Positions 15,259-38,789 of a stretch of DNA of 42,988 nucleotides are shown here, one piece after another. The translations under genes and the position numbers were made by a program. The stretch lies in the NCBI GenBank assembly GCA_947452765.1, contig CANGDR010000014.1, positions 1 through 42,988 of the forward strand. Reading direction: 5' to 3'. Position 1 is the first letter of the stretch. Each line of letters starts with the position of its first letter. The notes beneath the pieces were generated by a model that was given only the letters and a program-made list of their open reading frames with translations, had not been told where the DNA came from and did not search any database. The DNA comes from Actinomycetota bacterium (GTDB taxonomy: Bacteria; Actinomycetota; Actinomycetes; S36-B12; UBA5976).

Positions 15259-15296
15259 AAAATAGGGTCTGAACCGATTGGTTCAGACCCTATTTT
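15259..15296. terminator. Bidirectional intrinsic terminator between the thioesterase gene and livF
   Basis: A 17-bp perfect stem (15259-15275 / 15280-15296) with a GATT loop. A/T-rich arms on both outer sides supply a T tract in either direction, which suits the convergent genes around it. Confidence 0.9.
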
Positions 15297-19160: not shown

Positions 19161-19192
19161 TTGGGCGGGATTGGTAAACCAATCCCGCCCAA
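19161..19192 (-). terminator. Hairpin between livK and livH (attenuator or mRNA-stabilising stem)
   Basis: A perfect 14-bp GC-rich stem (19161-19174 / 19179-19192) with loop TAAA. On the minus strand it is not followed by a good T tract, so it is more likely a partial terminator or 3'-end stabiliser than a full stop. This would let the binding protein exceed the permease in amount. Confidence 0.6.
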
Positions 19193-37795: not shown

Positions 37796-37801
37796 AGACT
37801 A
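37796..37801 (-). promoter_or_regulatory. Predicted leaderless -10 of thyX (TAGTCT), overlapping the FTR1 gene stop
   Basis: The TAG stop at 37799-37801 is the first half of TAGTCT; six nt then lead to the thyX GTG. Confidence 0.5.
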
Positions 37802-38662
37802 TCGGGCGCGCTCTTCCATGTCGGCAGACACCTGCGATGTCGCGGAAAGCTGCTCTGAACCAGATTTGGGCTTGCGCAGTAGGAAATATAAAACCAATGC
37901 ACTATATCCGAGGTACCCAACAACTTGAAGTGTGGCAGTTGTCGGCTTCAAGTTGAAAATGCCTGCTGCAAGCGCACTCAAAATTGAGCCTTCGGTAAGC
38001 ACTCCGGTCAGGTTTATAAGTATGTTTTCTCCGCCTGGAAGTAAGCCAACTTCTTGGAATTCATGAATGCCATACGAGAGAACGCCAGCTGCAACAAAAA
38101 CCAACAGGATGCCGGTTATCTTGAAAAACTTCTGCAAATTTATTGTTGCCGTTGAACGGTAAAAGGCCCAACCAAGAACTACAGCAGTGCCGAGTCCCAA
38201 AATCAGGCCAGCTAGAGCTGTCGCTTGGTTGCCAGTTGCATGCGCCGCCGCCCAAAAGAATATTGCAGTTTCCGCACCTTCGCGAAGCACTGCTACAAAT
38301 GCCATGGAAGCAACGGCAAAGCCACCACCGGCTAGCGCCGCAGTATCCAGTTGCGTTCGTAGGTCCGAGCTAATTGTTCGGGCAGAACGTTTCATCCAGA
38401 AAATCATCCAAGTGACAAATCCAACGGCAGTGAACGAAACAACACCTGCAAAAATTGGCTCTAGGTTGACAGCTAGTTCACTTGAAATTGATTCCAGTAG
38501 GACAGCGATCACTATGCTTGCCAGCACAGCGCCAAGCACGCCTTGCCAAACTTTGCGAATGAGTGCAGTTCTCCCAGTTCGCACCAAGTACGTGATCAGG
38601 ATGCTGATCACAAGTGCGGCTTCAATGCCTTCACGAAGGCCAATGAGATAGTTGCCGATCAC
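37799..38662 (-). CDS. FTR1/EfeU-family high-affinity iron permease
   Basis: 287 residues with seven hydrophobic segments. The two REXXE iron-binding motifs are present in membrane segments: REGIE at 10-14 and REGAE at 127-131. FTR1/EfeU proteins move iron through the membrane, normally with a partner: EfeO/EfeB in bacteria, or a multicopper oxidase. No partner is in the window, so it works alone or with a distant gene. The C-terminal ~25 residues are hydrophilic. The start is a GTG, with AAAGGG about 10 nt upstream. A 28-bp palindrome 34 nt before the start suggests metal-responsive control. Confidence 0.9.
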   Translation of the reverse strand: MIGNYLIGLREGIEAALVISILITYLVRTGRTALIRKVWQGVLGAVLASIVIAVLLESISSELAVNLEPIFAGVVSFTAVGFVTWMIFWMKRSARTISSDLRTQLDTAALAGGGFAVASMAFVAVLREGAETAIFFWAAAHATGNQATALAGLILGLGTAVVLGWAFYRSTATINLQKFFKITGILLVFVAAGVLSYGIHEFQEVGLLPGGENILINLTGVLTEGSILSALAAGIFNLKPTTATLQVVGYLGYSALVLYFLLRKPKSGSEQLSATSQVSADMEERAR

Positions 38663-38695: not shown

Positions 38696-38723
38696 ATTTA
38701 TGCAACCTTAAGGTTTCATAAAT
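38696..38723. promoter_or_regulatory. 28-bp near-perfect palindrome upstream of the FTR1 iron permease (candidate operator)
   Basis: Centred at 38709/38710 with core AACCTTAAGGTT (38704-38715) and outer arms ATTTATG (38696-38702) and CATAAAT (38717-38723). Thirteen of fourteen base pairs are complementary, the only mismatch being 38703/38716. It lies in the gap between the EamA and FTR1 genes. On the minus strand the outer arms could include -35-like TTTATG and -10-like TAAATA. It has some likeness to DtxR/IdeR half sites (TTAGGTTA) but no full match. Confidence 0.6.
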
Positions 38724-38789
38724 CAGCCTACCTGCCGATCTGGAAAACCGCAAAGTGAGGGCCGACAAGCCATACCTAAGAAATTGGTT

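Follow-up and report, generated by a model that had tools for sequence, protein, structure and literature searches.

The FTR1 Locus and Its Promoter

The window, by which is meant the whole stretch of 42,988 nucleotides analysed here, carries a gene for an FTR1/EfeU iron permease that was recognised by Pfam PF03239 with 199.6 bits and by the NCBIfam EfeU model NF041756 with 292.5 bits (cut-off 255). Upstream of this gene lies the inverted repeat ATTTATGCAACCTTAAGGTTTCATAAAT, which consists of two arms of 14 nt with no gap between them and a complementarity of 93% (Table 1). A near-perfect palindrome before an FTR1 iron permease was what the initial annotation had described, and both the palindrome and the identity of the downstream gene were borne out. 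Neither EfeO nor EfeB was recognised among the ORFs adjoining the permease gene, and the ORFs around it resemble, by inspection, thyX, dapA, EamA-type and azlCD genes.

Three dyads in the window reach 13 or more of 14 pairs, whereas 300 dinucleotide shuffles gave on average 0.003 such dyads per shuffle. The two others, at 15264-15291 and 19163-19190, look like transcription terminators. The 12-bp core of the dyad upstream of FTR1, AACCTTAAGGTT, occurs a single time in the 1.6-Mb genome to which the window belongs. A search with this core that allowed two mismatches was uninformative, as it returned 63 matches per strand versus 248 for a reversed control.

Table 1. Coordinates of the permease gene and of the features upstream of it in the window.
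Feature	Position	Strand	Basis or remark
FTR1/EfeU iron permease, 287 aa, GTG start	37799..38662	-	PF03239, NF041756
Predicted operator dyad, 28 bp, 13/14 pairs	38696..38723	.	Dyad symmetry and genus conservation
Conserved core TTAYGNAAC-N6-GTTNCRTAA within the dyad	38698-38721		Genus conservation
Putative -10-like element TAGGCT	38725..38730	-	Inferred from alignment; 1 base before the dyad
Putative -35-like element TTGCGG	38748..38753	-	Inferred from alignment; 17 bp before the -10-like element

The alignment of 15 upstream regions from the genus revealed a likely promoter. The TTGC at window positions 38750-38753 is invariant in all 15 regions, as is the first T of TAGGCT, with the -10-like element as a whole following the pattern TANNNT. 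Since these -35- and -10-like elements lie directly upstream of the dyad, transcription is predicted to start inside the dyad, which would be the position of a repressor. The earlier statement that the palindrome overlaps the likely promoter was thus right in substance, with the conserved elements standing just upstream and the dyad itself covering the predicted start.

Conservation of the Dyad and the Exchange of Importers

The genus is represented by 23 genomes, and the neighbours of the window within it are MAGs from lakes and ponds. Conservation upstream of orthologous FTR1 genes was one of the two points, next to binding by a regulator, on which the initial annotation had let its proposal, an operator for an iron-responsive repressor, stand or fall, and such conservation was found throughout: FTR1 is present in 16 of the 23 genomes and the dyad lies upstream of it in all 16. 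When 15 of these upstream regions were read, 14 matched TTAYGNAAC-N6-GTTNCRTAA at all 16 scored bases and the other at 15; in the sixteenth genome (G005), where the gene is broken up between contigs, the dyad adjoins its 5' fragment. One locus whose contig ends at the gene (L026) was omitted from the upstream counts. A scan of all 23 genomes with up to three mismatches gave one site with no or one mismatch in 22 of them, and the genome without such a site (G013) is 75% complete and has no FTR1 match.

Six of the seven genomes without FTR1 (G007, G014, G015, G016, G017 and G021) carry the dyad at the same place beside thyX/dapA, where it precedes a ferric-iron ABC importer made up of a solute-binding protein, a permease and, in two loci that were read far enough to show it, an ATPase. 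The one copy of the binding protein that was compared with the PDB (from G014) matched 28 sequences at E <= 1e-5, 27 of them iron-related by name and the remaining one named just as a family 1 solute-binding protein. Against NCBIfam, the FbpA-type protein gave weak 2-aminoethylphosphonate-type matches only. Its PDB matches suggest a binder of ferric iron.

A single chromosomal place beside thyX/dapA (about 37799-38662 in the window; L153 and L154) accordingly holds either FTR1 or an FbpABC-type importer, depending on the member of the genus. This is an exchange of unrelated iron importers behind one putative operator, and the presence of two unrelated iron importers behind the same element ties that element to iron. 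Judged by its symmetry, position and conservation, the dyad at 38696-38723 almost certainly serves as operator for the FTR1 iron importer, and the suggestion of an iron-responsive repressor gains support from a dyad that is conserved both before FTR1 and before a different importer of iron.

The same comparisons bear on whether the dyad could work in the transcript instead, as a hairpin of the 5' leader or as a terminator. Lying at the predicted start, it would be partly transcribable, and the two similar dyads of the window are terminator-like. However, a single base separates it from the -10-like element, so that most of its first half would precede the start, and it is not followed by a run of T. 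Its bases are also conserved beyond what pairing would ask for: over the 22 sites from the genus, 14 of 24 columns are invariant and the central six vary, with the Y/R position symmetric in 18 of the 22. With the same sequence also standing ahead of unrelated importers, a role in the transcript is very improbable, and an operator on the DNA is the reading followed here.

For an FTR1 gene of the Actinomycetota, the standard arrangement would be control by a repressor of the DtxR/IdeR type, which likewise places an operator over the FTR1 promoter in the service of iron uptake. The IdeR box, with the consensus TTAGGTTAGSCTAACCTAA over 19 positions in the excerpted text of PMC8464063, was indeed found upstream of FTR1 in all 14 examples examined from other families of the order, at 15-18 of 19 positions, and loci L034 and L035 carry IdeR boxes at 16 and 15 of 19. 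In the genus of the window, by contrast, the operator is a different one: the upstream regions of 15 FTR1 genes scored 10-13 of 19 for the IdeR box, which is the level of the shuffled background, and the DtxR C-domain PF02742 was found in none of the 23 genomes (in the family it was found in 6 of 43). On inspection, the two weak PF01325 matches in the window's own genome resemble IclR and GntR, and they were set aside as candidates for a DtxR protein. As neither the box nor the protein was found in the genus, DtxR/IdeR was rejected as the regulator, a role for it being next to impossible, and the dyad is not a DtxR/IdeR box, in line with the initial annotation, which had seen no match to the full box.

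The sufR Promoter and the SufR Protein

The lead to a different regulator came from a weak match to the dyad that recurred in four genomes, where it fell at the beginning of a winged-helix gene with sufB after it. When weak 3-mismatch sites were followed in 10 loci, a promoter position recurred only at sufR, and the majority of the remaining sites proved to be in coding sequence. The sufR promoter carries WTAYGCAAC-N6-GTTG in 19 of the 19 genus genomes with a sufR match, usually running into the GTG start codon. Eleven genus sufR promoters were tested against the symmetric consensus and scored 15-16 of 18; when both strands of the window were scored in the same way, the dyad itself reached 15 of 18 and everything else at most 13. 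When the 23 genomes were scanned exactly with WTAYGNAAC-N6-GTTK, the importer dyads and sufR promoters came up along with about 20 places scattered elsewhere, a number below that for the reversed pattern used as control, which matched 48 times. The sufR promoter is the only other recurrent occurrence of the dyad core across the genus. The site there is symmetric in the core only, its outer right half being GTTGTGAAA and not GTTGCGTAA, and its conservation is partly accounted for by its overlap with the presumed -10 element and the GTG start. One more core-like stretch, ATATGCAACGCATGAGTTT, was noted in a single genome, the window's own, at C7:64028 (L174 1501-1519), about 80 bp before a gene resembling that for the small subunit of a [2Fe-2S] oxidoreductase.

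The core shared by the two promoters is a known one. In the excerpts of PMC8593673 and PMC11995493, the SufR operator is given as a CAAC-N6-GTTG inverted repeat, which in Streptomyces avermitilis overlaps the -10 element of sufR. Eight of the 22 genus dyads match this repeat at 8/8 bases, 13 at 7 and one at 6; the window's own dyad matches at 7/8. As for the protein, the best NCBIfam match of the genus SufR is TIGR02702 (SufR_cyano), over residues 11-214, almost the entire protein, with 56 bits, short of a cut-off of 178.8 that was set for cyanobacteria, and a comparison with the PDB gave no match. All 60 SufR ORFs, among them 18 of 18 in the genus, have cysteines spaced C-X12-C-X27-C. This is also the spacing of C203, C216 and C244, which are required in Rv1460, the M. 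tuberculosis protein, and Rv1460 is itself said to be leaderless (both from excerpts of PMC6034842). By inspection of the window's own genome and of G016, sufR heads the suf operon and is followed by sufB, sufD, sufC, sufS and sufU-like genes. SufR was not found in four of the 23 genus genomes or in two of 50 others searched, all or most of these being incomplete; G015, among the four, is rated 93% complete.

The likeness to SufR at the suf promoters of Synechocystis, S. avermitilis, Corynebacterium glutamicum and M. tuberculosis (Rv1460) therefore extends from the CAAC-N6-GTTG core to a winged-helix protein with cluster cysteines, a sufR gene that comes first in the suf operon and a site over the promoter. 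What differs from the published systems is the target, here an iron importer, and an operator that is extended to TTAYGNAAC-N6-GTTNCRTAA and symmetric.

A regulator of another kind has to be weighed at this point, as iron regulation in many bacteria usually falls to Fur-family proteins and one of these was found in all 43 genomes of the family, including the window's own, where FUR-A is encoded at C5:10111. Such a universal FUR-A might bind the operator in response to Fe2+ or some other metal, in which case the dyad and the sufR promoter would look alike because Fur acts at both. This is unlikely, however, given that the core of the dyad is that of the published SufR operator and that the loci examined place the Fur genes in other contexts. 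A second Fur-family protein adjoins znuABC or a ZIP-like gene and is thus Zur-like, and the neighbourhood of FUR-A is reminiscent of that of the nickel-responsive Nur of Streptomyces. Furthermore, the FUR-A locus of the window's own genome holds no exact match to the core. The dyad also appears not to resemble the GATAAT-type Fur box, in keeping with the initial annotation, which knew of no Fur box that it matches. The FUR-A gene of the window's own genome (C5, L138 3055-3995) lies between nitrobindin-like and ygfZ-like genes.

The initial annotation had put no name to the regulator. The reading that we favour, and hold to be probable, is that SufR binds the FTR1 dyad and represses the importer along with Fe-S assembly, with loss of the cluster at low iron freeing both promoters. 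With an adequate Fe-S supply, cluster-loaded SufR would sit on the dyad over the transcription start and block transcription of the importer, and it would occupy the related sufR promoter site in the same way. In a shortage of iron or of clusters, SufR would lose its cluster and leave both promoters, with a joint rise of iron import and Fe-S assembly as the expected result. SufR would in this way stand in for DtxR/IdeR, which is absent from the genus. Binding to the dyad, repression there and cluster occupancy as the signal are all predictions from the genomes, the last of them being drawn by analogy from what has been published for SufR at the suf promoters of other bacteria. In M. tuberculosis, for example, holo-SufR represses suf, which apo-SufR releases from repression when iron is low or NO is present (excerpt of PMC10848736).

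Distribution beyond the Genus

The genomes of GTDB were scanned for exact matches to TTAYGCAAC-N6-GTTGCRTAA, and at least 120 stretches were found, versus about 15 expected by simple arithmetic from equal base frequencies and 257 billion bases. Among the 120 matches listed, 70 precede FTR1, 22 precede an FbpA-type protein and 28 were at first assigned to neither. Five of the 28 were moved by eye to the iron importers, namely another FTR1 (L300), siderophore-ABC genes in Arthrobacter (L190 and L276) and Demequina (L234) and feoAB in Timonella (L272), which left 23 and brought the iron importers behind the dyad to 97 of the 120 matches listed. Most of these are in genomes of the Candidatus Planktophila/Nanopelagicaceae type, and the hosts among the matches listed include, by title, Ca. 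Planktophila lacus and Ca. Planktophila versatilis, IMCC26103 and many lake MAGs; at least three (L230, L247 and L254) are members of the genus to which the window belongs. The distance from the dyad to the start codon is most often 28-29 bp among the matches listed. A number of the lake MAGs (L212, L239, L249, L254, L262 and others) are titled Bifidobacterium breve; these titles look wrong, as the genomes are of 1.0-1.4 Mb with a gene content of the Planktophila type or of the window's genus.

Fifty of the genomes with the dyad were searched for regulators, and SufR was found in 48 and DtxR in four (Arthrobacter, Demequina and two Glutamicibacter). These genomes had been chosen mainly for having an importer, and the tallies do not represent a random selection. 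The sequence upstream of sufR was examined in 30 of these 48 genomes and at six further loci, of which L375 and L376 are second looks at Planktophila. The 30 Planktophila-type sufR loci comprise 14 with TTACGCAAC-N6-GTTG, 10 with TTACGACAC-N6-GTTG and six with neither, and the importer dyads of Planktophila-type genomes keep TTACGCAAC. In an exact scan of 13 such genomes, the importer site was found in all 13, the sufR site in 10, one recurring sequence in six, and nothing else. The recurring site, TTATGRAACTGNCC, lies inside an ORF in the one copy examined. In Arthrobacter, Demequina and Glutamicibacter the best match in the sufR promoter was 9-13 of 18, and this weak likeness makes the SufR reading weaker for the four genomes that carry DtxR.

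Eight of the 120 matches listed (L198, L203, L208, L235, L253, L260, L270 and L295) precede genes of the SRPBCC type, in Acidobacteria, Armatimonadetes, Flavobacteria, Pseudomonadales and others, and in five of the eight an ArsR gene is adjacent; the dyad at these places is perhaps an ArsR operator. These loci mean that the half-site is not exclusive to SufR, and they are what speaks for a winged-helix regulator other than SufR, for example one related to the ArsR proteins beside the dyad in other phyla, as the protein that recognises the same half-site at the importers. A regulator of this kind should, however, mark its own promoter, and recurrence in the genus is confined to the importer and sufR promoters. 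The 13 Planktophila-type genomes agree with this, as they show only the importer site, the sufR site and the one recurring sequence, which is coding where examined. A winged-helix protein other than SufR is thus a decidedly unlikely candidate, and SufR itself is the regulator considered in what follows.

SufR as a Proposed Regulator of Iron Homeostasis

The genus of the window and the Planktophila/Nanopelagicaceae-type genomes belong to the streamlined freshwater Actinomycetota, which are among the most abundant bacteria in lakes. On balance, it seems that in these bacteria, which lack DtxR/IdeR, SufR is the iron regulator, with a regulon of two promoters, that of the suf operon and that of whichever iron importer the strain has, and that it reads the Fe-S status of the cell instead of free Fe2+. 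As part of the same proposal, the extended operator would also have been taken up by siderophore-ABC genes in genomes with a DtxR of their own (Arthrobacter and Demequina); in Timonella it precedes feoAB.

There are parallels for such a design in RirA of the alpha-proteobacteria and in IscR, where an Fe-S cluster in the regulator sets iron uptake or Fe-S assembly, as is proposed here, and RirA likewise stands in for a sensor of Fe2+. Both are members of the Rrf2 family, which is unrelated to SufR, and act on different operators. SufR itself is described in the excerpts of PMC8593673 and PMC11995493 as dedicated to suf, with other targets in C. glutamicum given as not known, and the excerpted ChIP results for M. 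tuberculosis comprise four unrelated sites outside suf, with no iron importer listed there (PMC6034842). A literature search, which did not cover the SufR regulon papers on S. avermitilis and M. tuberculosis, returned no report of SufR controlling iron importers in the Actinomycetota, and nothing on the control of iron uptake in these lake bacteria. What is new is hence the predicted role at iron importers, and the extended operator, for a known family of regulators.

If the proposal is true, two targets under one Fe-S sensor would amount to a minimal iron circuit, and SufR would be widened from a regulator of Fe-S assembly to one of iron homeostasis. Several unrelated kinds of iron importer share a single control element, and with the operator, the regulator and the targets all named, the proposal is testable as it stands.

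A last observation concerns Glutamicibacter, in which the dyad also occurs 73-97 bp before trpD (L255 7475-7498 and L258 2559-2582). This may be due to chance; a study of C. glutamicum, as excerpted, links SufR with tryptophan synthesis (PMC8593673 / PMC11995493).
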